A stretch of DNA of 27,845 nucleotides from positions 1-27,845 of the IMG/VR virus record IMGVR_UViG_3300021976_000062. One strand, given 5' to 3'. This document shows, one piece after another, positions 1 through 11,859 of this stretch; position 1 is the stretch's first letter, and each line of letters begins with the position of its first letter. The notes below the pieces were generated by a model, which did no database searches, was not told the DNA's origin, and saw nothing but the letters and a program-made list of their open reading frames with translations. Origin of the DNA: a virus. Position numbers and translations under genes: made by a program.

Positions 1-93
1 TCTCTTGTTCGCGTACCACGAACGAACTTGGCCCTCGGAGCTGACGTCATACCAACCATTAGTCCACGGAACGGGCCGCCATTCCTCGCTCAT
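1..93 (-). CDS. NUMOD4-type HNH homing endonuclease, N-terminal part (cut by window edge)
   Basis: The minus strand reads from ATG at 93 off the left edge, giving 31 residues beginning MSEEWRPVPWTNGWYDVSSE and continuing GQVRSWYANKR. This is the classic NUMOD4 pattern (EEWRPI..GY..YEVSS.GRVRS) found at the N-terminus of free-standing phage HNH homing endonucleases. The catalytic HNH part would lie outside the window, so nuclease function is inferred from the family. A purine-rich ribosome binding site (GAGGTGGG) sits a few bases before the ATG. The gene appears to have its own promoter overlapping a palindromic operator (145-174), rather than being read only from the replication operon. Confidence 0.75.
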   Translation of the reverse strand, partial: MSEEWRPVPWTNGWYDVSSEGQVRSWYANKR

Positions 94-144
94 CCCACCC
101 ACCTCACCCTAGTCACAGTCGTAGGCTCATTTCCTACTGCGCTG

Positions 145-174
145 ATACTATCACCCTAGCGCTAGGGTTTACAA
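145..174 (-). promoter_or_regulatory. Leftward promoter with embedded palindromic operator (site A)
   Basis: Read on the minus strand: TTGTAA (174-169), 18 bases, TAGTAT (150-145). The spacer contains the perfect palindrome ACCCTAGCGCTAGGGT (153-168). The same palindrome recurs at the other control-region promoters. It would drive the NUMOD4 endonuclease gene starting at 93. The region 94-184 otherwise holds no gene. Confidence 0.5.
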
Positions 175-184
175 AGAGGACCCG

Positions 185-832
185 CTAAGAGACCAATGCC
201 TTGAACGCGTCGATCCCCTGAGTCACAAGGATCTTGTTGGTATCGCAGCCATTCGGCATGTGCACAGTCCTGACGCGCTCGACCTTGGAGCGGATCATCT
301 CTCCGAACCGGCGCCCAGAATCATCGCCGTCACACACGGCGATGACCTCCTCGAAGTCCTCAAGGTTCCGGCTCCAGTGCGGCTGCCACTTCGTGTCGCC
401 GCTGACTCCGACCGTGGGGAAACCCACGAGCGAAGCGCTGAACGCATCGATCTCACCGGACGTCACGTAGATGCGGTCCCCCGCATCCCTGAGCGCCTGC
501 ACGTTGTAGAGCCTGGAGGCCTGCCCCGGCAGGTCCAGGTACTTACCGTGCCCCTCACACTTCTCGTGGGCCATGCACCGGAACCGCAGAGCCACCACGC
601 CTGACGGCGTGATGTACGGGATGCTAAGACGTCCTACGTAGTCCTCGTGTCCCGGAATCGGGTCCCTTACCACGCCGAGACGGAAGGTACGAACGGCGTC
701 CAGTTGTGCCGCCGGGTCCAGGTCGGCCGGCATCCTGGTTTCGAGGTACTGGTAGGTAGGTTCGTCCAGGCTCTCGTGATACCGCTGAGCCGCTGCTGTC
801 AAGCTCTGCCTTTGCCCACTCGACAGCCTCAA
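185..832 (-). CDS. DNA primase, Toprim catalytic part
   Basis: Encodes 215 residues with the Toprim signature of bacterial/phage DnaG-type primases. The Glu motif is YVTSGEIDA (E127) and the metal-binding motif is AVCDGDDSGRR (D168, D170). It should synthesise RNA primers at the fork with the zinc-finger ORF just upstream. The frame opens at TTG (832), preceded by a plausible Shine-Dalgarno sequence GGGGAG nine bases away, so re-initiation is possible. It overlaps the CHC2 ORF by about 200 bases in another frame, and no ATG lies near the junction. Together the two ORFs make one ordinary phage primase. A +1 frameshift, a true two-polypeptide primase and a sequencing error all remain possible. 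This is the last gene of the leftward replication operon. Confidence 0.8.
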   Translation of the reverse strand: MRLSSGQRQSLTAAAQRYHESLDEPTYQYLETRMPADLDPAAQLDAVRTFRLGVVRDPIPGHEDYVGRLSIPYITPSGVVALRFRCMAHEKCEGHGKYLDLPGQASRLYNVQALRDAGDRIYVTSGEIDAFSASLVGFPTVGVSGDTKWQPHWSRNLEDFEEVIAVCDGDDSGRRFGEMIRSKVERVRTVHMPNGCDTNKILVTQGIDAFKALVS

Positions 833-1064
833 GGTAGCCCACTCCCCTATCTATCTTGATCAGCTCGTACACGTCGCCGGCCATCTCGCACCCAAAGCAT
901 CTGTAGACCGCTAGCTCCACGTTCACCGAGGCGCTGGGATTGCGGTCACCTTTCGGGTGACCTGCCTCGCTGAAGCATCGGATCTTCTGGTTCCCAAATT
1001 TCTCGGGATCTACGTCAATCCCTTTCGTAGCCAGGAACGCCACGAGCAGGGCGGACTTATCCAT
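624..1064 (-). CDS. DNA primase, CHC2 zinc-finger part
   Basis: Counting from MDKSALLVAF, C30-x5-H36 and C56-x2-C59 form a CHC2 zinc finger (KIRCFSEAGHPKGDRNPSAS, then YRCFGCEMAGDVYELIK), the DNA-recognition module at the N-terminus of DnaG-like primases. After about residue 88 (EAVEWAKAEL) the frame continues into Arg/Gly/Pro-rich sequence that looks non-coding, exactly where the Toprim frame opens at +1. The biologically meaningful part is therefore probably the first 90 residues, either joined to Toprim by frameshifting or acting as a separate subunit. Start choice is uncertain: ATG at 1064 overlaps the previous stop by eight bases, and ATG at 1073 is equally possible. Neither has a clear ribosome binding site. 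Confidence 0.75.
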   Translation of the reverse strand: MDKSALLVAFLATKGIDVDPEKFGNQKIRCFSEAGHPKGDRNPSASVNVELAVYRCFGCEMAGDVYELIKIDRGVGYLEAVEWAKAELDSSGSAVSREPGRTYLPVPRNQDAGRPGPGGTTGRRSYLPSRRGKGPDSGTRGLRRTS

Positions 1065-1428
1065 GGACACCATGACGCAATGCCCAGTCCGCCACGACTT
1101 CGTGGCGATCGTCATAGAGCCGGTCCATCAACTCCGTGCTGAGTTCCTCGACCATCTCCCGCGTGAGATACTCGTTCTCGGCGGTGAGCCAGACCGCCGT
1201 GCCATGGGGCCGAGTGTCGATTCGCATGACCCGAACGTCAATCTGGCCATGCAGCGCGCGAGCCGTGCCCGTGGTGCCGGGCTTGACCGGCTCGGGCGGA
1301 ACCTCAACGGAGACGCCGTTGTCGAGAAGCTCTCGCAACTGCCCGGAGGCGGCGGCGATGCCCGCCTCGTTGAAAAGCTCAACCAACCTACCGTGCTGCC
1401 GGGTCTTGTCGCTTGTCGTACCCATCAT
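1057..1428 (-). CDS. Hypothetical early protein
   Basis: Encodes 123 residues from MMGTTSDKTRQHGRLVELFN. The start was chosen at 1428 because AGGAG lies seven bases upstream. I do not recognise the family. The middle has a beta-rich look (ARALHGQIDVRVMRIDTRPHG), followed by acidic helical sequence (TREMVEELSTELMDRLYDD). No membrane segment or metal motif is visible. It overlaps the small gene before it by 41 bases and the primase zinc-finger gene after it by eight, so it is translated as part of the replication operon. Confidence 0.65.
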   Translation of the reverse strand: MMGTTSDKTRQHGRLVELFNEAGIAAASGQLRELLDNGVSVEVPPEPVKPGTTGTARALHGQIDVRVMRIDTRPHGTAVWLTAENEYLTREMVEELSTELMDRLYDDRHEVVADWALRHGVHG

Positions 1429-1561
1429 CAACCCACTCCTCTTCCGGCAAAGCTCTAACAAAGATCGGCTTCTCATTGCAGTAACCGCACCTACCCCAGC
1501 CAATGAAGGCGGGCACCTGCCAAATCCTGCAACAGCGCGCTTCGACTATCGGAAGCTTCAT
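1388..1561 (-). CDS. Small Cys-containing protein, unknown function
   Basis: Encodes 57 residues (MKLPIVEARCCRIWQVPAFI...) with Cys10-Cys11 and a CGYC pair (C25, C28) that could bind zinc. The start at 1561 has GGAGG eight bases upstream and forms an ATGA overlap with the stop of the nuclease gene before it. Tiny Cys-rich proteins of this kind are common in actinophage early operons. No function can be assigned from sequence alone. Confidence 0.6.
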   Translation of the reverse strand: MKLPIVEARCCRIWQVPAFIGWGRCGYCNEKPIFVRALPEEEWVDDGYDKRQDPAAR

Positions 1562-1968
1562 GCTGCGTCCTCCAGCGGAGTGCCGTATCCCTGGGCGCGT
1601 AGCCAGTAACAGATGTCCTCCAGGTACCAGCGCGTGGTGTAGTGCTGTTCTGCCAGGATGGCCCACCAGCGGTGGGCATTCGGAGCGCCAATCCCCTTGC
1701 GCTGCACAACCAGGACCCCGTACTCAGCGTTAGCGTTCAGGCGCTCGCGCTCGGTCTCCTCAAGCCACTTCTCGATCTGGCCATCGCTGGCGGACTTGGC
1801 GGCCTCGCCACCTTTCACTTCCCAGACAATGCCGACAGTCCCGACAATGTCTCCCAGGTCGTAGGTGCCGGCAAGGGCACGACGTTCCGCGTGAGGGAAT
1901 CCGTGTACACGTAGGGCCTTGACAACGGCGGTCTCTGCCGCCGTCCCAATGTCCTTAGGCCTGGCCAT
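1558..1968 (-). CDS. Holliday-junction-resolvase-like PD-(D/E)XK nuclease
   Basis: Encodes 136 residues from MARPKDIGTAAETAVVKALR. The GT..E opening followed by D-x2-D and WEVKGG (the E-x-K of PD-(D/E)XK) is the arrangement of archaeal Hjc-like and phage VRR/RusA-replacement endonucleases. These cut branched DNA during recombination or before packaging. A helical C-terminal half (GQIEKWLEETERERLNANAE, then a short strand YGVLVVQRKG) completes the fold. The start at 1968 makes an ATGA overlap with the MazG-like gene upstream, so the longer upstream extension of this frame is not used. Branched-DNA specificity is inference; a general restriction-like nuclease is the alternative. Confidence 0.65.
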   Translation of the reverse strand: MARPKDIGTAAETAVVKALRVHGFPHAERRALAGTYDLGDIVGTVGIVWEVKGGEAAKSASDGQIEKWLEETERERLNANAEYGVLVVQRKGIGAPNAHRWWAILAEQHYTTRWYLEDICYWLRAQGYGTPLEDAA

Positions 1969-2291
1969 CAGGCCACCGGAATCCGACGCTCGATGTTCGA
2001 CAGCTTGAGCGTCAGGACCGTCTCGGTGTCCCCAACGTCCTGCGTGAAGTGCTGAATGGCGCACAACGCAGTAATCGCCACGTCAGCCAGCTCGTTCAGA
2101 AGGTCTTCCTGAGTGTGCGTGAAGCCCTTTCTGGGGTTCTGGCCGGTGTAGCCGATGTACGCCTGGGCCACTTCACCAGCCTCCTCCGTGAGCTTGAGAA
2201 TGCGCATGGCATCGTCAGCATCACGCGAGAGGGCTCCGCCGTTAGCCTCGTCGATCCACCTGTTGATCCGGCCTATCTGTCGAAAAATCAT
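1968..2291 (-). CDS. MazG-like nucleotide pyrophosphohydrolase
   Basis: Encodes 107 residues with the all-alpha MazG/NTP-PPase metal motif. KLTEEAGEVAQA supplies the first E-x2-E and NELADVAITA the E-x2-D, spaced as in the family. Members hydrolyse (d)NTPs to monophosphates, and phage copies are thought to clean nucleotide pools or to lower (p)ppGpp-type starvation signalling. The protein is shorter than full MazG (single domain). It is coupled by ATGA overlap to the nuclease downstream and overlaps the preceding gene by 50 bases. Confidence 0.7.
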   Translation of the reverse strand: MIFRQIGRINRWIDEANGGALSRDADDAMRILKLTEEAGEVAQAYIGYTGQNPRKGFTHTQEDLLNELADVAITALCAIQHFTQDVGDTETVLTLKLSNIERRIPVA

Positions 2292-2493
2292 CGTCCCACC
2301 CGTTCTCTATCTCAGTCTTGGCGTCCCAGTAGCCCTGGTCATAGCCATGGCTGGTCCATTCCTGGCGATGCTCATTGAGGAACGCGAGGCAGTAGTTCAC
2401 CAGGGAGCCGCCCAGGTCTACGAGACTTCCCTCAGCATGCTTGAGGATCCGAGCCTCGACCTCCTTGCGGAGGTCACTCTTGTCAGTCTCCAC
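2242..2493 (-). CDS. Hypothetical protein
   Basis: Encodes 83 residues with a GTG start at 2493, METDKSDLRKEVEARILKHA. It is predominantly helical and acidic and contains WTSHGYDQGYWDAKTE. No recognised domain or membrane segment is seen. It overlaps the previous gene by 11 bases and the MazG-like gene by 50, in keeping with the compressed replication operon. The overlap and absence of gaps are the main support for translation. Confidence 0.55.
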   Translation of the reverse strand: METDKSDLRKEVEARILKHAEGSLVDLGGSLVNYCLAFLNEHRQEWTSHGYDQGYWDAKTEIENGWDDDFSTDRPDQQVDRRG

Positions 2494-2680
2494 GGTTCAG
2501 CGCCTCGTTGATGGGATTGGTTAGCAGCCCGGCCTGAGCCAACATCTCTGCCTGATGCTTGGCGTGGTCGCCGTCACCAGCCCAGCCGCAATCACAAGAG
2601 CCGAAGCCCTCGGGATCAGGCTTCTCCAACCACTCGTGCTCATAGATAATCTCAGCGGCCCGCTCCACAAAGTCGCTCAT
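2483..2680 (-). CDS. Small C/H-rich (putative zinc-binding) protein
   Basis: Encodes 65 residues (MSDFVERAAEIIYEHEWLEK...) with CDCGWAGDGDHAKHQAEML. The C-x-C-G-W...H-x2-H cluster recurs in many short actinophage proteins and may hold a metal. The start at 2680 forms an ATGA overlap with the stop of the helicase-like gene. Function unknown; a small accessory DNA-binding role is only a guess. Confidence 0.65.
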   Translation of the reverse strand: MSDFVERAAEIIYEHEWLEKPDPEGFGSCDCGWAGDGDHAKHQAEMLAQAGLLTNPINEALNRGD

Positions 2681-3486
2681 GCTGCCACTACTCCAAAGTC
2701 CTCGAATGCCAGGCTTTCGCGGTCTTGCTTGATGAACGTGGCGTTCTTTCCGGTCTTATCGCTGGAGCCGAAGCGGCTCTTCACGATCGCTATCGGCTTC
2801 TGTCCGCTAGGCCACGTCTCCGACGTGGTCAGCACCAGCGCCGGCTTCACGCTAATCTTCCCGTGAATGGCCCTGCGCGGTGGGCAAGGGTCATCCTTCT
2901 CGGACTCTGAGGTGTGGTGCAGGACCAGCACTGCCGCACTGGTGGTGCGGGCCAGGAATGTCAGGTCCCTCATAACTCTGCGCAGAGCACCGAACTCATC
3001 CCCGTCTGACTGCTCCACGTCCGTGGCATTGTCAATGATGATGAAGTCTGGGACTCGGCCCCACATCTCCTCGAAGGCAGCCAGCTCCAGGTCAATGCCG
3101 TCCAGCGTGATCTCGGGGTCGAAACACCACGAGATCCCAGAAGTGGAGGCGATCGCCTCCACTGCCTGCTGGTCATTCGCCTGGAGCTTCTGCTCCATCT
3201 CCTTGACCGGACGCCTCAGGACCATTGCCGCAGTCCTGGAGGCAGCCACCAGCTCACTGCTGTCGGCACTGAAGTAGATGCCGATCAAACCCAGCTTGGC
3301 CCAATGAACGCTGAGCCACAGTGCGATGGTGGACTTCCCTGCTCCCGGCTGGCCGGCCAGCATGCTCACCTCTCCCCTGCGGAAGTGAGCACCCTGAGCA
3401 GCCAGAGACGGGAACACGATGGGCAATGGTGCGCCGCCCGCCTCGCCCCCGCGAATTGCCCTTGCCAAGCTGCGCACCCTTACCAC
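2677..3486 (-). CDS. RecA/DnaB-fold ATPase (replicative helicase-like)
   Basis: Encodes 269 residues. Walker A is GQPGAGKST (45-53) and Walker B is VPDFIIIDN (145-153), with a following VLVLHH sensor-like segment (186-191). This matches the AAA_25/DnaB-C-like core used by phage replicative helicases and RepA-like ATPases, which unwind DNA at the fork using ATP. It lacks the N-terminal primase-interacting domain of full DnaB and is correspondingly short. It sits among primase, OB-fold and exonuclease genes. The start is GTG at 3486, overlapping the previous stop by seven bases; GTG at 3477 is an alternative. A helicase loader or recombinase (Sak4-like) role cannot be excluded. Confidence 0.75.
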   Translation of the reverse strand: MVRVRSLARAIRGGEAGGAPLPIVFPSLAAQGAHFRRGEVSMLAGQPGAGKSTIALWLSVHWAKLGLIGIYFSADSSELVAASRTAAMVLRRPVKEMEQKLQANDQQAVEAIASTSGISWCFDPEITLDGIDLELAAFEEMWGRVPDFIIIDNATDVEQSDGDEFGALRRVMRDLTFLARTTSAAVLVLHHTSESEKDDPCPPRRAIHGKISVKPALVLTTSETWPSGQKPIAIVKSRFGSSDKTGKNATFIKQDRESLAFEDFGVVAA

Positions 3487-4049
3487 CTCTCCAGAGTCTT
3501 CAGATTCGTTACCTTCAGGACTGGGCCACCGTCTCGTGACTCAACCACGCCGCGAACCGTGAGTACTGCACCGTCCACGATTCCCTCTGCGCTGTCTCCG
3601 AAGGCAATAGCGGGACAAGCACCCTGAAGGTCCTCCAGCCGAAACCGTGCCCAAGCAGTGCCACGGCGTGACATCTTGACTTCCGAGTCAGAAACCACCC
3701 CTGAGACCGAAAGCCACCGTCCACTTCCACTCTCACGAACATCAGTCGTGGAGTCGGACTTCGGAAGGTGAGTGTGGTCAAGCGGGTGGCTGGTGCTATA
3801 GAAACCCAGCTCTTCTCGTTCACCTATCAACACCTCGCGAATGTTGTCCGGGAGTTCGGGAGCCTTGAGCCAGGGAGGGGGCGCCGTGTAGGCGCCCCAC
3901 TCCGCTAGCTTCTTCCGCTTGCCGGCCAGGGCTTTGGCTTTCTCCGGACCTTCAGCCTCCAGCTTGGCGATCTCTTCCTTCAGCTTGTCCAGGTCTTGAC
4001 GACGCTCGACAATCAGGTCCGCGATGGCCAGGAGGCCCCTACGGCTCAC
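3480..4049 (-). CDS. DnaE C-terminal-like OB-fold protein
   Basis: Encodes 189 residues beginning with GTG at 4049 (MSRRGLLAIADLIVERRQDL), in GTGA overlap with the tiny gene before it. An N-terminal coiled coil (LDKLKEEIAKLEAEGPEKAK) is followed by EREELGFYSTSHPLDH. That resembles the E-x-LGFY-S-HPL signature at the start of the C-terminal OB-fold region of bacterial DNA polymerase III alpha, and an OB-fold-like beta domain follows (WLSVSGVVSDSEVKMSRRGT... VLTVRGVVESRDGG). The polymerase catalytic domains are absent. It may bind single-stranded DNA or dock host replisome parts; this is inference from fold and operon position. Confidence 0.65.
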   Translation of the reverse strand: MSRRGLLAIADLIVERRQDLDKLKEEIAKLEAEGPEKAKALAGKRKKLAEWGAYTAPPPWLKAPELPDNIREVLIGEREELGFYSTSHPLDHTHLPKSDSTTDVRESGSGRWLSVSGVVSDSEVKMSRRGTAWARFRLEDLQGACPAIAFGDSAEGIVDGAVLTVRGVVESRDGGPVLKVTNLKTLERW

Positions 4050-4150
4050 CGCTTGCCGAGGACCATGTAGTTCTTGATGACGGTGGCAATCCAACTAGCA
4101 ATGTGCTGGACCAGAACGATGAACAACGCCACCTCAACGTAGGTGCTCAT
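4046..4150 (-). CDS. Tiny membrane protein
   Basis: Encodes 34 residues, MSTYVEVALFIVLVQHIASW then IATVIKNYMVLGKR. The first two thirds form one hydrophobic helix long enough to span a membrane, ending in a basic tail, so an N-out/C-in topology is likely. The ATG at 4150 overlaps the TAA of the gene before it (TAATG), and its TGA overlaps the GTG of the OB-fold gene. It fills what would otherwise be a 100-base gap in a gap-free operon. Function unknown. Confidence 0.6.
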   Translation of the reverse strand: MSTYVEVALFIVLVQHIASWIATVIKNYMVLGKR

Positions 4151-4539
4151 TAGCCGAACGGCCCGGCGATCTTGGTCTCGACCTTGGCAGCACCAGCAGA
4201 CGCCAGCGCGAAGTCCTCGTCCGTGGGGTCCTCAAGGTTCCAGTACTTGTTCTTCACCTTGACCGCACGACCCAGAACCTTCAGGCCTTCCTTGTCCTTG
4301 AGGATGTTCACGAACGCGGTGTACTGAAGGTCCACGTTGTCGTAGGACTTGCCGGCGTTGGCACCGTCGAAGACGGTGACGTCCGCGAAGACCGTGTCCT
4401 TGATCTCCTTGAAGTTGTTCTCGTAGTCCTCCTGGAACCGGCGCACCTTGATGCCCAGGAGGGCACCCTCGTTGCTCTTCAGGTTGAAGAACTCCCGGTC
4501 ACCGCTGCCGCCGCTCTCGGGCTTGACCCAGTCGCTCAC
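4150..4539 (-). CDS. Conserved early protein, possible ssDNA-binding protein
   Basis: Encodes 129 residues from GTG at 4539 (MSDWVKPESGGSGDREFFNL), in GTGA overlap with the preceding stop. The body alternates beta strands and charged turns (FKEIKDTVFADVTVFDGANA, then VDLQYTAFVNILKDKEG... LGRAVKVKNKYWNLEDPT), like an OB-fold. The acidic/Gly termini and the place between exonuclease and helicase genes fit a phage single-strand binding protein. I do not recognise a specific family, so the role is inference. Confidence 0.55.
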   Translation of the reverse strand: MSDWVKPESGGSGDREFFNLKSNEGALLGIKVRRFQEDYENNFKEIKDTVFADVTVFDGANAGKSYDNVDLQYTAFVNILKDKEGLKVLGRAVKVKNKYWNLEDPTDEDFALASAGAAKVETKIAGPFG

Positions 4540-4994
4540 TTCGTGATCTCCTCTGCGCGTGCCTGACCCAGCGCGGTGAACTCCTCGGTCCACTGCGCTT
4601 CGTGCTTGTTGTAGATGTCGTTCAGTTCGTCAGTGCTCATCGCGTTGGCGATGAGGGATTCGATGCTGTCCGTCACCTGGTGGGGCTCGGTGGTCTCAGC
4701 CGCTGCCTTGGCCTGAGCCGCGAGGCCGCCCTTCGGAGCGGCCTTCTTCTTGGGCTCGGCGCCCTTGGCGGCCGGCGGCTCAGTCAGCTTCTCGGCTGCG
4801 GCGTACAGCCCCCGCGCCCAGCGACTGGCCTCGATGATCACCTGAGCCAGCGTCAAGTCCTTGGCGTACTCCGGGTCCAGGGCGGTGGCCTGAATGAGCT
4901 GCTCGCGGATCTGCTCAGGCGTGCCGTAGACCGTGTACCAGGGGGCGGCGTAGTCGCCGCCGAACTTCAGCGAGACGTTCGAACTGTCACTCAT
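4536..4994 (-). CDS. Conserved early protein with Ala/Lys-rich linker
   Basis: Encodes 152 residues. The N-terminal part (SLKFGGDYAAPWYTVYGTPE, then QIREQLIQAT) resembles small domains seen in phage replication accessory proteins. A low-complexity Ala/Pro/Lys linker (about 73-98) is followed by a helical C-terminus (IESLIANAMSTDELNDIYNK). It is translated in overlap with both neighbours (eight bases upstream, GTGA downstream), and its pairing with the following beta-rich protein suggests a two-protein unit. No catalytic motif is visible. Confidence 0.55.
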   Translation of the reverse strand: MSDSSNVSLKFGGDYAAPWYTVYGTPEQIREQLIQATALDPEYAKDLTLAQVIIEASRWARGLYAAAEKLTEPPAAKGAEPKKKAAPKGGLAAQAKAAAETTEPHQVTDSIESLIANAMSTDELNDIYNKHEAQWTEEFTALGQARAEEITK

Positions 4995-5103
4995 CCCAAT
5001 CCTCCTCGTCTTCCTGCACTCGCTCGATGAAGTCCACGTGCTCCATCGCTTCTTCTCGCGTCAGTGGCATGTACTCACGGAAGAACGGCGTGAGGTCAGG
5101 CAT
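4987..5103 (-). CDS. Small acidic protein
   Basis: Encodes 38 residues from MPDLTPFFREYMPLTREEAM and ends in a strongly acidic tail (ERVQEDEEDWDE). The ATG at 5103 lies within the end of the previous gene (eight-base overlap) and its own end overlaps the next start by eight bases. There is no strong ribosome binding site, so translation is probably coupled. No domain recognised. Confidence 0.5.
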   Translation of the reverse strand: MPDLTPFFREYMPLTREEAMEHVDFIERVQEDEEDWDE

Positions 5104-5248
5104 CCCACGTGATCCGATCTGTTCCAAAGCCAGCAGCGTGGAAGCCTTCGTGGTCCCAAGGGCGCCGGCACAGATAGAACGGGTTGTAGAGGTCTTTGCA
5201 GGAGTCGTCATACGTGGTGTACGCGAACTCCAGATCCAGGTCGACCAT
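5096..5248 (-). CDS. Small zinc-finger-like protein
   Basis: Encodes 50 residues (MVDLDLEFAYTTYDDSCKDL...). The LCRRPWDHEGFHAA segment gives C-x9-C-x5-H-x3-H when counted with C17, a pattern frequent in short actinophage proteins and suggestive of a single zinc site. The start at 5248 was chosen because it makes a TGATG overlap with the exonuclease stop, and GGGAAAGGGAAG precedes it. Function unknown. Confidence 0.6.
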   Translation of the reverse strand: MVDLDLEFAYTTYDDSCKDLYNPFYLCRRPWDHEGFHAAGFGTDRITWDA

Positions 5249-6063
5249 CACTTCCCTTTCCCAAGACATAGGTCTTTGCCGTAGAAGCTGCAATACTCTG
5301 AGCAGATCCGGCCCGAGTAGTCCGCAGGTGGGATCTCCCCGTTAAGTGCCTCTGCTTGCCTCTGGCGAAGCCAGTCCAGAGCCTTGACAGCAATGGCCTC
5401 GTCATACCGCTCAACGTGAGAGACGTTGTCCGTGAAGGCTCCGTCTTTCACGATGCCGATGATCTCGACCCACTCGACTTCGTAGCCGGCCTTAATGGCT
5501 AGGTACCCGTACACCTGGCCTTGCCAGCGATACTGCTCGCCCGGAAAGAACCTGAGGTTCTTCTTCTTTGGCGTCTTCCAGTCCACGATCTTCTTCTGGT
5601 CCTTGCGGTACAGGTCCGTGTGACCATCCGCTAGCAGCCCAGGGATTCCTGGGAGCGTGATCTCCGTGAAGAGGTTCTCGTCCTTGAGCTTGTTGATTGC
5701 TTGCTCTGCGTGATCGTGGACTGCCGTCCCGATCAGTGCGCCTTGCCGGTCCATTGGTTCGCCATCAACGAAGTTGATTGGCGACTGACCTACGAGCTTG
5801 AAGAAGGTCTGCCGGCGGCAGCCACCCAGTCCCGAGGGGCCGATCTCTGTCTGCTGGCTGCGGTCTCGGTCTTCGTCCAGCGCCACCCATGCCCGAGTCA
5901 GAAGGTCCAGAGTGGACTCGCCTGGGGCATCTTCCTTAGTCGGAATCTCGCGCTCGACTTTCCGAGCTTTGACCCGATCCTCAAGCCAATCGATGCCGCC
6001 CTTGGGTTTTGTGCCGCCTTGGCTGGGCTTAGTCCACTCGCTTGTATCGGCCGTCAACGCCAC
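5248..6063 (-). CDS. Cas4-like RecB-family exonuclease
   Basis: Encodes 271 residues with PD-(D/E)XK exonuclease motifs: H116 in IGTAVHDHAE, D150 in LADGHTDLYR, D161-W-K163 in KIVDWKT, and the QxxxY-type helix EQYRWQGQVYGYLAI. Four cysteines (C82 in GGCRRQ; C254, C258 and C266 in ICSEYCSFYGKDLC) match the Fe-S cluster ligands of Cas4/AddB-type nucleases. Phage Cas4-like proteins resect DNA ends for recombination and replication. There is no CRISPR array or other cas gene nearby, so a CRISPR role is not indicated. The frame starts with GTG at 6063 inside the preceding zinc-ribbon gene (35-base overlap); a later start is possible. Confidence 0.8.
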   Translation of the reverse strand: MALTADTSEWTKPSQGGTKPKGGIDWLEDRVKARKVEREIPTKEDAPGESTLDLLTRAWVALDEDRDRSQQTEIGPSGLGGCRRQTFFKLVGQSPINFVDGEPMDRQGALIGTAVHDHAEQAINKLKDENLFTEITLPGIPGLLADGHTDLYRKDQKKIVDWKTPKKKNLRFFPGEQYRWQGQVYGYLAIKAGYEVEWVEIIGIVKDGAFTDNVSHVERYDEAIAVKALDWLRQRQAEALNGEIPPADYSGRICSEYCSFYGKDLCLGKGK

Positions 6064-6208
6064 CTTCGCTCACCCGCCCAGTGCGCTGGTCCACTGTCGC
6101 TTCACACGAAGGGCAGTTCCACCAGTGGCATGTGGGCGACTCGCAGTGCACCTTGGCTTCACCTGAATGACAGCGCGGGCACTTGTCTGCTGCGGCCACT
6201 GCGCTCAT
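6029..6208 (-). CDS. Small zinc-ribbon protein
   Basis: Encodes 59 residues starting MSAVAAADKCPRCHSGEAKV. CPRCH, then C-x4-C-H and C-P-S-C pairs (HCESPTCHWWNCPSCEATVD), give two C-x2-C-type knuckles of a double zinc ribbon. The ATG at 6208 forms an ATGA overlap with the previous gene. Such ribbons commonly contact nucleic acid or protein partners; no specific function is assignable. Confidence 0.65.
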   Translation of the reverse strand: MSAVAAADKCPRCHSGEAKVHCESPTCHWWNCPSCEATVDQRTGRVSEGGVDGRYKRVD

Positions 6209-6495
6209 GCGACGTTGGCCTCAAGGTCCGTGCCTTCGTAGACCGCGTCATGGATGGACTCGATGTCCAGGTCCCACTCGCGGCGCTCGATGCGGAAGGG
6301 CAGTCCCAAGCCCTCTTCCTCCGCCGTGCCCAGGAAGTCGTTGCCCCACTCCCAGCCGCCGAACTCCCAGAGGATCAGGAGCTTGTTGTCAACCTCCACC
6401 ACGGAACCCTTGGTGACACCGACACCGTCGTCGCCAACGTGGATCACGTCGCCCAGCTCCAGGTCCCAGTACCCTGGCTCCGTCAGCTCTGCCAT
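6205..6495 (-). CDS. Hypothetical acidic beta-rich protein
   Basis: Encodes 96 residues, MAELTEPGYWDLELGDVIHV... The first half looks like a small beta barrel with a KOW/SH3-like feel (GDVIHVGDDGVGVTKGSVVE), followed by an acidic C-terminus. The start codon at 6495 sits inside a partial copy of the operator motif (CCATGGTTTAC on the plus strand), with GGAGGGG 12 bases upstream. Control of its translation or transcription by the operator-binding protein is conceivable. Family not recognised. Confidence 0.6.
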   Translation of the reverse strand: MAELTEPGYWDLELGDVIHVGDDGVGVTKGSVVEVDNKLLILWEFGGWEWGNDFLGTAEEEGLGLPFRIERREWDLDIESIHDAVYEGTDLEANVA

Positions 6496-6519
6496 GGTTT
6501 ACAATCCCCTCCGAAGAGA

Positions 6520-6537
6520 GGGCGGCTCACGCCGCCC
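6520..6537 (-). terminator. Hairpin between first two genes of the leftward operon
   Basis: On the minus strand GGGCGGC-GTGA-GCCGCCC is followed by TCTCTT. The 7-bp GC-rich stem with a pyrimidine-rich tail lies between the 37-residue gene and the next gene, so it may attenuate rather than end the operon transcript. A second hairpin just before it (6562-6584, stem GCTCTCGC/GCGAGAGC) holds the stop codon of the 37-residue gene in its loop. Confidence 0.35.
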
Positions 6538-6569
6538 CATCCACCAGCTCCAGGTTTGGCGGCTCTCGC

Positions 6570-6683
6570 TCACTCCGCGAGAGCGCCGGACCCCGTCAAG
6601 CGAAGCTTGTCGAGGTACTCCTGCCAGGAGATGATCCTGGCCTCGCCGTAGTCCTCGTCCGCCCAGTCCGGGTCTTCGTCCAT
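6570..6683 (-). CDS. Small acidic protein, first gene of the leftward operon
   Basis: Encodes 37 residues beginning MDEDPDWADEDYGEARIISW, with ten acidic residues in the first 15. A strong ribosome binding site (GGAGGGGG) lies just before the ATG at 6683. It is the first reading frame after the putative leftward promoter (6711-6739), with a leader of only about 20 bases. Short highly acidic early proteins can act as DNA mimics or host-takeover peptides, but nothing in the sequence decides this. The competing longer frame over the same bases (6499-6723) is Arg/Gly-rich and not supported by a ribosome binding site. Confidence 0.55.
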   Translation of the reverse strand: MDEDPDWADEDYGEARIISWQEYLDKLRLTGSGALAE

Positions 6684-6710
6684 CGCCCCCTCCAGCCCTG
6701 CAATGCCTCA

Positions 6711-6739
6711 ACCCTAGCGCCATGGTTTACGATCCGCAA
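6711..6739 (-). promoter_or_regulatory. Putative leftward early promoter with operator (site B)
   Basis: Minus strand: TTGCGG (6739-6734), 17 bases, TAGGGT (6716-6711). Transcription would begin about 6704 and reach the 37-residue gene at 6683. The spacer and -10 overlap operator copy B, a variant of the palindrome with one degenerate half (CCCTAGCGCCATGG on the plus strand). The -35 match is modest. The site is placed where a repressed early promoter for the replication operon would be expected. Confidence 0.45.
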
Positions 6740-6819
6740 CCGACACCACGGACGAAGATCAACATCGTCTCCCTAGCGGAAGAGCGCGGCGACCAGAAAA
6801 GGGATCAGGAGGGAGTCCC

Positions 6820-6849
6820 TTGACAACCCTAGCGCTAGGACTCTACAAT
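6820..6849 (+). promoter_or_regulatory. Strong rightward promoter with operator in its spacer (site C)
   Basis: TTGACA (6820-6825), 18 bases, TACAAT (6844-6849): a near-consensus housekeeping-sigma promoter. Its spacer is almost filled by CCCTAGCGCTAGGA, so a bound protein would block polymerase. No convincing rightward gene follows. A 56-codon frame (ATG 6851 to TAG 7021) spans CTAG-rich sequence with no ribosome binding site. Transcripts would run antisense to the leftward membrane-protein/regulator pair, or stop at the hairpin at 6933-6955 as a short RNA. Confidence 0.65.
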
Positions 6850-6885
6850 CATGGTGGCGGTGGGGACGGGGGCTAGATCCCTTAC

Positions 6886-7042
6886 CCTAGGTACCTTGTT
6901 CTTTGATCCTTGTCCTAGAGCTAGGAGCCTAAGCGTAAGCACTTCGTGCTTACGCAGTCCTAAGTACATAGAGCTTAGGTCCAAGATCCTTGACACTAGG
7001 TTCCTAGCGCTAGATGTCTAGGATCCTTGACCTAGCTCTAGG
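6886..7042. repeat. CTAG-rich cluster of short palindromes and GATCCTTG repeats
   Basis: This 157-base stretch has CTAG at many places, a tetramer otherwise infrequent here: CCTAGG (6886-6891), CCTAGAGCTAGG (6914-6925), CCTAGCGCTAG (7003-7013) and CCTAGCTCTAGG (7031-7042). Three copies of GATCCTTG (6905-6912, 6985-6992, 7022-7029) precede three of the palindromes. The last copy lies inside the 3' end of the membrane-protein gene. The sequences are variants of the operator core CTAG-NN-CTAG, so this may be a multi-site binding region for the phage repressor or a partition/origin-like element. The interval 6684-7017 contains no convincing gene. Confidence 0.55.
6933..6955. terminator. Perfect 10-bp hairpin, probable terminator
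   Basis: GCGTAAGCAC-TTC-GTGCTTACGC is a perfect inverted repeat with a three-base loop. It lies about 60 bases beyond the stop of the leftward membrane-protein gene and about 80 bases after the rightward promoter at 6820-6849, so it could end transcripts from both sides. There is no long U run in either direction, so factor-independent termination is uncertain. Confidence 0.4.
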
Positions 7043-7770
7043 AGACATAGCTCCAGCTCCAGGATGCTGAGATCAGCGTCAATGCACACCAGGTGCTCGA
7101 CGCCGCCAGGCGGCGGGCTCGGGGGCTCAGCCGTAGGGCTGGGCGAGGGACTCGGGCTAGGCGCCGGTGGCTCTGGCGTAGGCGTGGGCTCAGGAGGCCC
7201 CTGAGGGGGCTCTGTGGGGCCTGGAGGTGGCTCCGGGCTGGGGAGTGAGGGTGGCCCCGGTTCAGGCCCAGTAGGGGGCGCTGAGGGCTCCGAGCCAGGG
7301 CTCGCCTGAGGCGAGCTTTCCGAGGGGGTCGTCACAGCCACGGAGGCCGGCTCTGGCGTGGCCGTAGGCCCGAGGCCTACGGTTGGGGCGACAGTGGGGC
7401 CCAGCGTTGCCAGGGGGGCTGGAGCGTCAGGCCCCACTGTCGGTCTGTGGGTGGGTGACCCTATGACGCTCGGCACCTCGGGTTGGTTTACGTCATCGCC
7501 GAAGGGAATCATCAGGAGGATGGCGGCGGTGCCCGCCAGGGCGCCCGCTCCTGCGACGTAGGCGACTCTGTCCTTGGCCTTCGTGGCAACCCAGAGGGCG
7601 GCAGCAGCCGCCCCTCCCTTGAGGACGCGAGGGACCCAGCGCCGAGGGGGCGGCGGATAGAGGACTGCCTCGATCTCCGCCGCCTCGTCCTCGATCTTGG
7701 TCACTTCGTCAAGGTGAAAGTCGAGCTGCGCCCTCAGCTCGTGGAGCCTGCGCGTCAAGTGATCATTCAC
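7018..7770 (-). CDS. Membrane protein with long proline-rich domain
   Basis: Encodes 250 residues from the preferred GTG at 7770 (MNDHLTRRLHELRAQLDFHL). An N-terminal acidic coiled coil precedes a Pro/Arg segment (YPPPPRRWVPRVLKGG), then one or two hydrophobic segments (AAAAALWVATKAK; VAYVAGAGALAGTAAILLMI). About 140 residues of Pro/Ser/Thr/Glu-rich sequence follow (PTPTPEPPAPSPSPSPSPTA), then a short Leu-rich tail (LSILELELCLLELGQGS). This suggests a membrane anchor with a stiff domain, perhaps crossing the peptidoglycan. It lies directly downstream of the HTH regulator in the same leftward unit, a place where prophage-expressed exclusion or lysogenic-conversion genes are common. Function is otherwise unknown. 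The last codons overlap a CTAG palindrome. Confidence 0.6.
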   Translation of the reverse strand: MNDHLTRRLHELRAQLDFHLDEVTKIEDEAAEIEAVLYPPPPRRWVPRVLKGGAAAAALWVATKAKDRVAYVAGAGALAGTAAILLMIPFGDDVNQPEVPSVIGSPTHRPTVGPDAPAPLATLGPTVAPTVGLGPTATPEPASVAVTTPSESSPQASPGSEPSAPPTGPEPGPPSLPSPEPPPGPTEPPQGPPEPTPTPEPPAPSPSPSPSPTAEPPSPPPGGVEHLVCIDADLSILELELCLLELGQGS

Positions 7771-7822
7771 CCAGAGCAACGTACCCGCTACTCTAAGTGA
7801 CGTCTTGTCTGGTTCGGACCAG

Positions 7823-8401
7823 TTACTGCTGGCCCTCCTGGCGTTCGTCCGCCGCGAGTTGCCGCTCCAGCCGGCGGATCTCAGCTTCGATGCGTTCGCG
7901 GCCCATCCTGGCCTCGCCGCGGACCCTGATCTTGGTCGGGTCGTAGGTGCTGATGGGGTACTTCGGGTGCAGGTACTCCGGCGGAACCTCGGTCCGGTCG
8001 ACGAACGGGAAGACCTCTTCCACGGGCGCATCGTCCGCCGCCGCTGGGTTGTAGGCGATGACGAAGCCCAGTCTCTCCGACTCGCGCAGCAGCTTGGTGG
8101 CTCGTTTGGTGCGCATGTCGTCGAGGGGAAGGCCGCGATCCAGCTTCTCCAGGTCCCTTAGCTGCTGGAGCCTGTAGTGCCGGGAGTGCGCGTTGCGCAC
8201 CTTCCACGGCGCGGCCTCTGCGAAGCGAACGATCTCCTTCGTCAGGCCGGCCTGGTGCAGGCGCTGAGCGATCAGGTTGGCGTTCCACGGAACCCGGTAC
8301 TTCTCGGCGGCCCGATCAGCCATCTGCTGGTGGGTGAGACCCTCCTCCCTCCAGGCTCGCAGCTCTCCGTTGTCCGGTCCAGGCTTGCGCGGCGGTGCCA
8401 T
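7823..8401 (-). CDS. HTH DNA-binding protein, candidate immunity repressor
   Basis: Encodes 192 residues from ATG 8401 (MAPPRKPGPDNGELRAWREE), which has GGAGG eight bases upstream. Residues about 12-53 look like a helix-turn-helix (ELRAWREEGLTHQQMADRAA... NLIAQRLHQAGL). A second basic segment (APWKVRNAHSRHYRLQQLRD) resembles the WRVR.EH segment of HTH proteins common in actinophages. It is divergent from the rightward operon, and the interval between them (8402-8657) holds operator copies and promoters for both directions, the layout of a phage repressor. A leaderless GTG at 8449, exactly at the predicted start site, would give a 208-residue form. Repressor identity is inferred from context. 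Confidence 0.6.
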   Translation of the reverse strand: MAPPRKPGPDNGELRAWREEGLTHQQMADRAAEKYRVPWNANLIAQRLHQAGLTKEIVRFAEAAPWKVRNAHSRHYRLQQLRDLEKLDRGLPLDDMRTKRATKLLRESERLGFVIAYNPAAADDAPVEEVFPFVDRTEVPPEYLHPKYPISTYDPTKIRVRGEARMGRERIEAEIRRLERQLAADERQEGQQ

Positions 8402-8454
8402 CGTTCGTCCTCCAGGGTGTGTGGTTCGTTCGATCGACACACCATTCACGCTGA

Positions 8455-8483
8455 AGCCTACGCCTTGGTTTACACCAGACCAA
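8455..8483 (-). promoter_or_regulatory. Putative promoter of the regulator gene
   Basis: Minus strand: TTGGTC (8483-8478), 17 bases, TAGGCT (8460-8455). Its spacer carries GTAAACC, as does the leftward promoter at 6711-6739 at almost the same distance. Predicted transcription start is near 8449, where an in-frame GTG could be read without a leader. An inverted repeat CTTGGT...ACCAAG (8464-8484) overlaps the -35 region. Confidence 0.45.
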
Positions 8484-8561
8484 GAAAATTCTAGGATGTC
8501 TCATGTGCGCAGGTCGGAACCGGGCAAGTTGTTGTGGAAGAAGCCCTGATTTAGGCCCATC

Positions 8562-8576
8562 TAGGGTTTACGAAGG
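8562..8576 (+). promoter_or_regulatory. Half copy of the operator motif (site E)
   Basis: CTAGGGTTTACG keeps the right half of the CCCTAGCGCTAGGGTTTAC element without its left half. It lies between the regulator promoter and the rightward promoter and has the same orientation as the other copies. No good -35 box accompanies it, so it is more likely a weak binding site than a promoter. Confidence 0.35.
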
Positions 8577-8595
8577 TCAGGACCAGGGATGACGT

Positions 8596-8625
8596 TTGAC
8601 AGACCCTAGCGCTATGGTTTACGTT
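8596..8625 (+). promoter_or_regulatory. Rightward operon promoter with operator (site D)
   Basis: TTGACA (8596-8601), 18 bases, TACGTT (8620-8625). The spacer holds CCCTAGCGCTATGG, a copy of the palindromic operator. Transcription would start about 8632 and reach the ATG at 8658 after a 26-base leader with GAGGGG. This is the best candidate promoter for the rightward integrase operon. The same operator in it and in the leftward promoters implies common control. Confidence 0.65.
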
Positions 8626-9086: not shown

Positions 9087-9100
9087 GCCTCCCCACAGAT

Positions 9101-9524
9101 TTGAGCGGGGCCAAAGAACATGCGGAGTCCAATCCGGCCCCGCCCCGCTCAACCACTCTTGCTCAGCGGCCAAAACTCTGGCGAGGCCATCAAGAAGCCG
9201 CCGCTGAGCAACTAACTTCCCGCACCGGCCAGGTTGGCGTCGGAATCCATCATCGGTACGTCGGTGCGGGAACCATTCTTGCCAGGGGCCACGCGAAGCT
9301 CGAAGCCCAACCGCCCCTCGCCCCTCGCAACATTCTTCCGCTCCGGCCAATTACGTTGCGAAACCCAAGGTTGCCGCGCCGGAGCGGAGCAAGGCCCGCG
9401 ACAGTGGCCATGCCCGAGGCGAAACCCACAAGTCCAGCGCCGCTGTCGCGCTAATCGTCGAGCACCCCGGCAAGGGGTTGGCGACCCGCCGGGCTTCCGT
9501 GCCCCCGGCGGCCGGGGTGCTCGA
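9101..9524 (+). ncRNA. Array of seven tandem stem-loops, probable structured RNA
   Basis: Units at 9101-9152, 9159-9211, 9217-9272, 9279-9330, 9337-9388, 9398-9449 and 9458-9524 each fold into one long hairpin. Stems: TTGAGCGGGGC, TTGCTCAGCGGC, TTCCCGCACCG, TTGCCAGGGGC (one mismatch), TCCGCTCCGGC, GCGACAGTGGC (one G-U) and TCGAGCACCCCGGC, each with its complement about 30 bases later (loops 29-30 nt in five units, 34 and 39 in the others). Stem sequences differ but pairing is kept. Six units have GGCCA at the stem exit, and a core like GCGAAACCCA lies about eight bases into the loop. Linkers are short (CCACTC, CTAAC, CCATTC, CATTC in the first four). The 57-62 base period is not a multiple of three, arguing against coding. 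Strand is taken from the flanking operon; a DNA-level role (origin, recombination sites) is the alternative. This fills the otherwise gene-free 9087-9561. Confidence 0.75.
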
Positions 9525-9561
9525 CTCATCTCCAACACCCGAAACCCAACAGGAGGAAAGC

Positions 9562-10068
9562 ATGTCCAAGGTCAGCGAACTGATCGAAGAGGCGTGGGAG
9601 TTCCACGCCGAGTCCTACGGCAGTGAAGAGTTCCTGGAGTTTGTCACCAACCGAGCCTTCAACAAGGCCACCAAGAGTGACCTCTACCCGCTCGTGGCCA
9701 ACGAGGTCGGCAAGCGGTACCGCAGTGGCGTCAAGGCCACCGAAGACGCAGCCTTCGGCCCTGAGCCCGAGTTCCACGAGAACGTGCGCAACCTCAACAC
9801 CACGCCGAAGTACGCGAACCTCAAGCCCGCAACCCCCCACCGGGACCGCCTGGAGGCGGAGCGTCAGCTCATGGACGAGGGGTTCAAGCTCGACGGGGAG
9901 TACGTCCCCTGGGGCGACGCGACCGCCGAACAGCATGACCGACGCGCCAGCCAGCTCCGCAGCAAGGCGGGTGGCCTGGTGGTCACGGCTGAGCGTCACG
10001 AGCAGGCCGCCGCCCTCATCCGCCAGAACGGCGCCACCTCCCTGCGTGGCGTGGAGCGTGCGGCATGA
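9562..10068 (+). CDS. Conserved actinophage-type protein, unknown function
   Basis: Encodes 168 residues from MSKVSELIEEAWEFHAESYG; AGGAGG six bases upstream fixes the start at 9562. It is mostly helical. A C-terminal segment, YVPWGDATAEQHDRRASQLR... TAERHEQAAALIRQNGATSL, resembles a helical-hairpin motif seen in proteins of many actinophage genomes, without known function. It begins 37 bases after the stem-loop array, and CGAAACCCA, the conserved array-loop core, lies directly upstream of its ribosome binding site. An autoregulatory or array-binding role is therefore worth testing but is not shown. ATGA overlap couples it to the next gene. Confidence 0.7.
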   Translation: MSKVSELIEEAWEFHAESYGSEEFLEFVTNRAFNKATKSDLYPLVANEVGKRYRSGVKATEDAAFGPEPEFHENVRNLNTTPKYANLKPATPHRDRLEAERQLMDEGFKLDGEYVPWGDATAEQHDRRASQLRSKAGGLVVTAERHEQAAALIRQNGATSLRGVERAA

Positions 10069-10850
10069 GCACCTGGACTGACCTCCGCCTGGCGGCGGAG
10101 GTATACGCGGACTTCGAGAGCGTGGTCGTCAAGCTGAAGCAGCGCATCAATCGGGCGATCGTCCTCGACAAGAGCGTCTACGAGATGCAGTTGGACGTTG
10201 CGCAGCGCCAACTGACTGGCCGCCTGCGCTACAAGAGCAAGGGCGCCGAGTCCAGCATGCTGGAGGACTTGGAGGTCATCTACAAGGCCGTTGCGCCCAA
10301 GGGCATCCAGGACTGGCAGAAGGCCCAGAAGGGCATCGGCATCCCGTCCTTGGCCCGCCTGCTGGGCGACACGGGGCACCCGGTCCGCGCCGTGCCTCAC
10401 ACGGCGCAGCCGAACCCGGACTACGACAAGGACGAGCCCGCCAGCGAGGACAACCAGAAGACGATCCTCTTCTACGGCGAGCCGTTCGACAGAACGGTCT
10501 CGCAGTGGTGGTCATACTGCGGGCACGGTGACGCGAACCGCAGGCGTCGCAAGGGGATGTCTGATGACGAGGCCCTGGCCCTTGGCCGGCCTAAGGCGAA
10601 GATGCGCGTCCACCTCATGGCCGCCGACTGCGTCAAGGTCGGCATTACCCGGTTGCCGGGCGTCGAGAAAGGCACCAAGTTTTCTCCGGACACGCGCAAG
10701 GCCACTTCGCATTACGGCGCCGTGTACCTCGACCGCCGAACCAAGACGTGGGACCGCGAGGACTGGACCGACAACCACAAGAACAACGATGCCATTCGCA
10801 TCACGGCCAAGGAGATCCTGCGGGATCTCTGGTTGGCCGCTCGTGCCTAG
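10065..10850 (+). CDS. Transposase_20 (IS110/IS116 C-terminal)-like protein without DEDD domain
   Basis: Encodes 261 residues. After an N-terminal helical region, QKAQKGIGIPSLARLLGDTG (87-106) is a helix-hairpin-helix like the IPGIG...LLAEIGD motif of the IS110 C-terminal domain. It is followed by SQWWSYCGHGDANRRRRKGM (146-165), LGRPKAKMRVHLMAADCVKV (173-192) and SHYGAVYLDRR (215-225), which parallel the R-S-x-x-G...G...N-x-x-R-x-x-L and Y..Y segments of those transposases. The N-terminal RuvC-like DEDD catalytic domain is absent, so it is unlikely to be an active transposase. No IS ends are seen. It sits between the array-adjacent gene (ATGA overlap) and the integrase (eight-base overlap). 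A structural or DNA/RNA-binding role is inference. Confidence 0.6.
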   Translation: MSTWTDLRLAAEVYADFESVVVKLKQRINRAIVLDKSVYEMQLDVAQRQLTGRLRYKSKGAESSMLEDLEVIYKAVAPKGIQDWQKAQKGIGIPSLARLLGDTGHPVRAVPHTAQPNPDYDKDEPASEDNQKTILFYGEPFDRTVSQWWSYCGHGDANRRRRKGMSDDEALALGRPKAKMRVHLMAADCVKVGITRLPGVEKGTKFSPDTRKATSHYGAVYLDRRTKTWDREDWTDNHKNNDAIRITAKEILRDLWLAARA

Positions 10851-11859
10851 CGCAGTCCGCCTGAGCGAGGCCATAGACGAGTACCTGGAGAGCCGGGAGA
10901 CGCACGACGTCTCCCCCAACACCATCAGGTCCGAGAAGTCCATGCTCGTGGGGTTCTTGACCACGATCGGAAATCTGTATCCGAGGAGTATCGAGCCCCG
11001 CCACGTGGACGCCTGGCTGGCGGAGAACCGTCACTGGGAGCCCAGCACCAGGGCTCAGCAGATAGCCCGGCTGAGCGGCTTCCAAAAGTGGCTCACGGTG
11101 CGCAAGTACGTGGGCCGAGGTGACGACTTCCTGGAGGGTGTGCGCAAGGCGAAGATCCCTCGTAAGCGCCGGCCACGCATCGCGCTGGAGCAGTTCGGCG
11201 AGACACTGGCCCGGGCCACGGTCCCTCGTGACCGCATCATCGTGGCCACGGGACTCTTCCTCTTGGTGCGCGCCAGTGAGCTGACACCGATCAGGTGGCG
11301 GGACGACCACGACGACCACGTCTCCGTCTACCGCACCAAGACCGGGGACTGGGACGACCTACCGGTCGGCCCGGACTACAGGGACGAGCTGAACCGCTGG
11401 AAGCGACACGTGTGCGTGGAAATGGGCGTCACGGTGCCAGACCCGAGCTGGTACATCCACTGCGCCATGATGCGCCCGGAGTCCAGGAACACCCGAGGGG
11501 TGTTCATCTCGGGGACCGGCGAGTACCCACTGCTTCCTGACCGCCCGCTCATGACGCCACGGGTCAGGGTCCAGGAGGTGCTGCGCCAGCTCGGCATCAA
11601 CGAGAGGGGTAGCGGCATGCACACGTTGCGCAGGAGCGGAGCGAGGGCCTACTTCGAGTCGCTCCTGGCTGACGAGAAGGGCAAGGACGAGGCGCTGGCT
11701 GTCGTCCAGTCCATGCTCGGCCACGCATCTCCTACTCAGACGCTGGTCTATATCGGATGGGAGACAAGCCGGGCAATGCGCGACAAGGTCATCCTCGGTC
11801 GGCGTATGATCACGCCCACGGTCGAGGGCAGGGTGATTGAGTTGAGACCGAGGGGATGA
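10843..11859 (+). CDS. int: Tyrosine integrase
   Basis: Encodes 338 residues from GTG at 10843 (MPSAVRLSEAIDEYLESRET). A SAM-like core-binding domain (about 8-105) precedes the catalytic domain. Catalytic residues are visible: R143 in FLLVRASELTPIRW, K166 in YRTKTGD, H260-x2-R263 in MHTLRRSGAR, H294 in MLGHASPTQT and Y303 in LVYIG. It would integrate phage DNA into the host chromosome by site-specific recombination. The start was chosen because the longer upstream frame only duplicates the previous gene out of frame; the overlap with the preceding stop is eight bases. A short N-terminus suggests limited arm-site binding. It is coupled by ATGA to a small zinc protein that could be its directionality factor. 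Confidence 0.9.
   Translation: MPSAVRLSEAIDEYLESRETHDVSPNTIRSEKSMLVGFLTTIGNLYPRSIEPRHVDAWLAENRHWEPSTRAQQIARLSGFQKWLTVRKYVGRGDDFLEGVRKAKIPRKRRPRIALEQFGETLARATVPRDRIIVATGLFLLVRASELTPIRWRDDHDDHVSVYRTKTGDWDDLPVGPDYRDELNRWKRHVCVEMGVTVPDPSWYIHCAMMRPESRNTRGVFISGTGEYPLLPDRPLMTPRVRVQEVLRQLGINERGSGMHTLRRSGARAYFESLLADEKGKDEALAVVQSMLGHASPTQTLVYIGWETSRAMRDKVILGRRMITPTVEGRVIELRPRG

Follow-up and report, generated by a model that had tools for sequence, protein, structure and literature searches.

Putative operators and stoperator-like sites of an L5/R4-type immunity repressor in an uncharacterised phage lineage

Background

A short element that combines a palindrome with GGTTTAC recurs in the IMG/VR record IMGVR_UViG_3300021976_000062, a genome fragment of 27,845 bases that was analysed over its whole length (hereafter the window). 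Which protein reads this element, and would it act on the initiation or on the elongation of transcription? Our analysis suggests that the sites are probably operators and stoperator-like sites of the phage's own L5/R4-type immunity repressor, encoded at 7823-8401. Most likely, then, the window carries a repressor operator/stoperator system that belongs to the known L5/R4 kind and whose site sequence is new.

Results and discussion

A repeated element concentrated in non-coding DNA

An initial annotation of this DNA had described a recurring palindrome linked to GGTTTAC, and counts over the whole window confirm that the element is real. The 19-mer CCCTAGCGCTAGGGTTTAC occurs in one exact copy and in three copies with one to three mismatches (none expected; 100 shuffles), and GGTTTAC occurs seven times against 0.86 expected, always on the plus strand (166, 6496, 6724, 7485, 8467, 8565 and 8616; Table 1). 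The sites listed earlier all exist, with ends that were off by 1 to 5 bases; the list lacked the GGTTTAC at 7485 and a looser CTAG-NN-CTAG form of the palindrome at 6914, 7003 and 7031. The motif is not equally frequent in coding DNA: non-coding sequence makes up 7.0% of the window yet contains six of the seven GGTTTAC copies (binomial P about 8e-7) and 18 of the 41 CTAG words (binomial P about 7e-11), both counts resting on an approximate, hand-made gene list and the copy at 6496 touching a start codon. The GGTTTAC at 7485, which is coding and has a poor flank fit, is probably a chance occurrence.

Two separable elements make up the repeat, namely the asymmetric GGTTTAC/GTAAACC and the palindrome ACCCTAGCGCTAGGGT. 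Three of the four promoter copies (154, 6712 and 8604) have the two fused in register. No GGTTTAC accompanies the palindrome at 6827 or, in its looser form, in the CTAG cluster; conversely, GGTTTAC occurs without the palindrome at 6496, 8467 and 8565, as well as within the coding region at 7485. Of the two, the asymmetric element is shared most widely; on the minus strand, which is the sense strand for leftward genes, five of six copies read GTAAACC[AC][AT][AG]GC. The palindrome is restricted to the promoter copies and the cluster at 6.8-7.05 kb. An operator set is still the best reading of the repeat, as first proposed, with the amendment that the palindrome is less widely shared than GGTTTAC/GTAAACC. 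A single orientation had also been claimed for all copies. This holds for GGTTTAC (seven of seven on the plus strand, in a region where all genes from 1 to 8401 run leftward), a small sample that includes two copies from a divergent gap. It does not hold for the copy at 6822-6840, which has its better arm on the minus strand (CTAGCGCTAGGGTTGTC) and, lacking GGTTTAC, has the palindrome alone in common with the others.

Table 1. Repeated sites, predicted promoters and the repressor gene in the window
Feature	Position	Strand	Sequence, context or evidence
Full putative operator, exact	154-172	+	CCCTAGCGCTAGGGTTTAC; 19-mer search; 16-bp perfect palindrome ACCCTAGCGCTAGGGT at 153-168
Promoter-like sequence, rank 7	174-145	-	TTGTAA-18-TAGTAT; palindrome fills spacer; upstream of leftward frame starting at 93
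Asymmetric copy, promoter-free, stoperator-like	6491-6502	+	GCCATGGTTTAC; over start codon of gene 6205-6495
Full putative operator, 2 mismatches	6712-6730	+	CCCTAGCGCCATGGTTTAC; 19-mer search
Promoter-like sequence, rank 6	6739-6711	-	TTGCGG-17-TAGGGT; -10 overlaps palindrome
Promoter-like sequence, rank 1	6820-6849	+	TTGACA-18-TACAAT; palindrome fills spacer; also found by generic sigma-70 scan
Palindromic copy with degenerate right element, 3 mismatches	6822-6840	-	TCCTAGCGCTAGGGTTGTC; 19-mer search
CTAG palindrome cluster (6914, 7003, 7031)	6914-7043		Between repressor operon and early genes
Predicted L5/R4-type immunity repressor, 192 aa	7823-8401	-	PHROG, homologues, profile, model
Asymmetric copy, promoter-free	8462-8473	+	GTAAACCAAGGC on minus strand; repressor gene leader
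Asymmetric copy	8560-8571	+	TCTAGGGTTTAC; repressor/8658 intergenic region
Promoter-like sequence, rank 2	8596-8625	+	TTGACA-18-TACGTT; operator fills spacer; upstream of 8658 and integrase-side genes
Full putative operator, 1 mismatch	8604-8622	+	CCCTAGCGCTATGGTTTAC; 19-mer search

Promoter-like sequences around the palindromes

Promoters were predicted computationally with a simple scoring scheme, applied to the full window on either strand. Each of the four palindromes falls in the -35/-10 spacer of a promoter-like sequence, and these sequences rank 1, 2, 6 and 7 in the window. Three full copies had been placed in 18-base spacers, and the scan returns the same three (6820-6849, 8596-8625 and 174-145), together with a fourth (6739-6711) whose spacer is 17 bases long. 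The palindrome itself does not create this agreement, since three of the four promoter-like sequences have both hexamers beyond its ends. The predicted promoter at 8596 faces rightward genes, among them that of a tyrosine integrase (10843-11859); that at 6739, a candidate early promoter for leftward genes from about 6681, faces genes for an exonuclease, a DnaB-like helicase, a RusA-like resolvase and a primase. The one at 6820 is directed rightward toward the repressor operon, antisense to it, and no plus-strand gene was recognised downstream. An antisense or small RNA could arise from this last promoter (6820-6856 and onward).

It could be argued that the repeat serves no repressor and is just a promoter element that recurs, read by RNA polymerase or by an activating transcription factor of the phage. 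Part of the -10 of the 8596 promoter indeed comes from GGTTTAC, but the -10 hexamers at 6739, 174 and 6820 are not made of it, three copies of GGTTTAC lack a good in-register promoter, and sigma factors do not need a palindrome of 14-16 bp; we regard this explanation as highly improbable. Nor do the CTAG palindromes, at least those clustered at 6820-7045, read easily as sites of a replication origin or of partition, placed close to the replication genes and overlapping promoters only incidentally. Such a role would fit the dense clustering of CTAG palindromes with direct repeats and a cumulative GC skew minimum at about 7 kb, between two leftward-transcribed arms, but it does not fit the isolated copies at 154 and 8604 in promoter spacers, and no ParB-like or initiator gene was recognised when 29 window proteins were scanned against PHROGs. 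We consider it very unlikely, if slightly less so than a promoter element.

In addition to the four promoter-spacer copies, the computational analysis yields three promoter-free copies. One of these, at 6491-6502, sits between two genes of one operon and over a start codon, which, as far as the sequence can tell, is a typical stoperator position.

The protein encoded at 7823-8401

The initial annotation had named the product of 7823-8401 as the protein to try for binding to the sites, and that product is homologous to immunity repressors. The protein matches PHROG 3929 'transcriptional repressor' (E=4.8e-12) and is about 30% identical to the annotated immunity repressors of phiHau3, BroPlease, RedBear and Omar, the phiHau3 record being annotated as similar to L5 gp71. 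A phmmer search with the single sequence matched no solved structure; only the family profile, built from 13 homologues, gave one, the TipsytheTRex immunity repressor (7r6r/7tz1, E=1.7e-9), which shares 98% identity with the L5 repressor. The AlphaFold model (mean pLDDT 89, pTM 0.63) has 7r6r as its top match in both Foldseek (prob 1.00, E=1.6e-3) and VIA-align (Z 8.4, 146 residues, rmsd 5.9 A, a value so large that the relative placement of the domains differs or is uncertain), and the remaining VIA-align rows cover the HTH only. These comparisons of sequence and predicted structure place the protein in the L5-type (L5 gp71/PHROG 3929) immunity repressor family, with an HTH (helices 11-50) followed by a stoperator-like domain (helices 76-111).

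Contact residue R108, which is essential in the TipsytheTRex repressor, aligns by eye with R100 of the window protein. Recognition-helix R45 is not conserved, and a different operator sequence is therefore expected. The window repressor also has an extra C-terminal helix (166-191), with I/I/L/L at consecutive heptad a/d positions, that is absent from its 23 relatives in an alignment of 24 sequences. The closest named-phage matches of the repressor and the primase are actinophages, and the host is probably actinobacterial, as a candidate assignment only.

Comparison with known repressor systems

The sites had been called comparable in logic to L5 stoperators. The likeness holds, in that promoter and promoter-free copies are both present, but mere analogy understates it, as the PHROG, profile and fold evidence favours L5/R4 homology. 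The repressor sites of phiC31 had been named alongside those of L5; the matches obtained for the window repressor are of the L5/R4 type. Mycobacteriophages L5 and TipsytheTRex (cluster A) share with the window phage the two-domain repressor fold and the combination of promoter operators with promoter-free gene-gap sites; the window phage differs from them in lacking R45 and in having symmetric promoter copies. Also, its consensus GGTTTAC/CTAGCGCTAG is distinct from the 13-bp L5 consensus, a difference in sequence that had been noted from the start.

The R4-like (Arquatrovirinae) Streptomyces phages R4, phiHau3 and Omar have a homologous repressor and are reported to carry repeated, mostly intergenic repressor sites in one orientation (PMC10276819). 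Asymmetric sites were recovered de novo in phiHau3 (37) and Omar (44), and their orientation follows transcription in both, with 15+/4- in the rightward and 0+/16- in the leftward arm of phiHau3 and 18+/3- and 2+/14- in the corresponding arms of Omar; a further relative, L029, has eight non-coding sites in a single orientation. The R4-like phages differ from the window phage in site sequence (phiHau3 AGTGTGTTAGAC..GACA, Omar GTGTGTAAGTGT.CC) and in having a serine instead of a tyrosine integrase. The window phage, in turn, has far fewer sites (7-8 in total, against 20-44 in relatives), palindromic promoter copies and the additional repressor helix. Rhodococcus cluster CA phages, reported with stoperators in gene gaps and in one orientation (PMC13313380, PMC5721134), provide a system of this type outside mycobacteria; their consensus (TGTCTATTGTCAAG) differs from that of the window and is present in up to 20-25 copies.

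No near relative with the same sites was found in scans of viral and genome contigs: the exact motif gave no match in the genome contigs and single matches only in the viral contigs, which we take as chance because those contigs have neither the repressor nor a repeated set. No nucleotide relatives were found in the phage collection, a search of the genome contigs with the repressor and one with the protein at 10065-10850 were empty, a search with DnaB returned distant contigs only, and L019 was rejected as a relative. Many short relatives yielded no clear site set. GTTTAC in L029 and L033 was dropped as a candidate site since it is mostly coding, and a GTAA-like core seen by eye in the sites of the window, Omar and L029 was set aside because two comparisons imply opposite polarity.

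L029 and the overlapping contigs L033 and L034, all of which encode this repressor family, contain many copies of a perfect palindrome, GTTTAAAC (12 in the 17.8 kb of L033, six of them non-coding). This palindrome is perhaps another symmetric operator in the L5/R4-type repressor family.

A proposed mechanism

The operator/stoperator reading draws on the excess of copies over chance, the non-coding position of GGTTTAC, the palindromes in top-ranked promoter spacers and the assignment of the repressor by profile, PHROG and fold, together with the oriented sites in phiHau3, Omar and L029 and those reported in R4-like and Rhodococcus CA phages (PMC10276819, PMC13313380). In a prophage, the repressor would occupy the palindromes that fill the spacers of four promoters (rightward at 8596 and 6820, leftward at 6739 and 174) and block initiation. 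The promoter-free asymmetric copies in gene gaps (6491, 8462 and 8560) would be bound as roadblocks to elongating RNA polymerase or, alternatively, would serve the repressor in controlling its own gene. We infer repressor binding, promoter activity and the elongation stop at the promoter-free copies. Several points count against the repressor reading, namely the small number of sites, the missing near relative with the same sites and the structural arm (15 kb at 12.8-27.8 kb of an incomplete genome), where no convincing site was found.

The near-perfect palindromes of 14-16 bp at the promoter copies are unusual and count against the repressor reading as well, because the characterised family member binds asymmetric DNA as a monomer (PMC9283540), from which a palindrome is not expected. 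The main rival explanation builds on this and invokes two proteins, with GGTTTAC/GTAAACC as the repressor site and the CTAGNGCTAG palindrome as the operator of a second, dimeric regulator from the phage or its host. That the elements are separable, with the palindrome standing without GGTTTAC at 6827, 6914, 7003 and 7031, speaks for a second protein, as does the monomeric binding of the L5-type repressor; their fusion in register in three of the four promoter copies speaks against it, and a comparison of 29 window proteins (several small frames being left out) with PHROGs revealed no second Cro- or HTH-type regulator. We judge two proteins to be unlikely. Under the operator/stoperator reading, the palindromes might be accounted for if the repressor dimerised through its coiled-coil-like helix 166-191, binding head-to-head on symmetric promoter operators (ACCCTAGCGCTAGGGT) and as a monomer on the asymmetric sites where elongation is blocked, a doubtful idea to which we give only slightly more credence than to a second regulator. 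If true, a single protein would bind in one mode to act on initiation and in another to act on elongation. The operator/stoperator reading would add to the L5/R4 repressor-stoperator system a phage lineage that is uncharacterised and has a new site sequence, and the window offers a natural test of whether symmetric and asymmetric sites can divide initiation block and elongation block between them.

Other features of the window

Directly after the repressor gene, a minus-strand frame at 7018-7767 encodes a predicted coiled coil, a hydrophobic segment and a long Pro/Ser/Thr-rich tail; the protein has no match in PHROG or Pfam and is a candidate for a surface or exclusion protein that is co-expressed with the repressor. 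The neighbouring region at 6850-7045 contains, in addition to CTAG palindromes, GATCCTTGAC-type direct repeats and a perfect GCGTAAGCAC/GTGCTTACGC hairpin, and might serve as a terminator or an origin. The GC skew switches sign at about 7 kb, yet the genes of the early and late arms are both leftward.

A 475-base non-coding stretch at 9087-9561 (plus strand) folds as seven hairpins in succession, each about 45-70 nt long, whose loops have GGCCA or GAAACCCA-like words. Its MFE z-score is -4.8, none of 100 shuffles is as stable, and Rfam gives no match; the stretch looks like a tandem array of structured RNAs.
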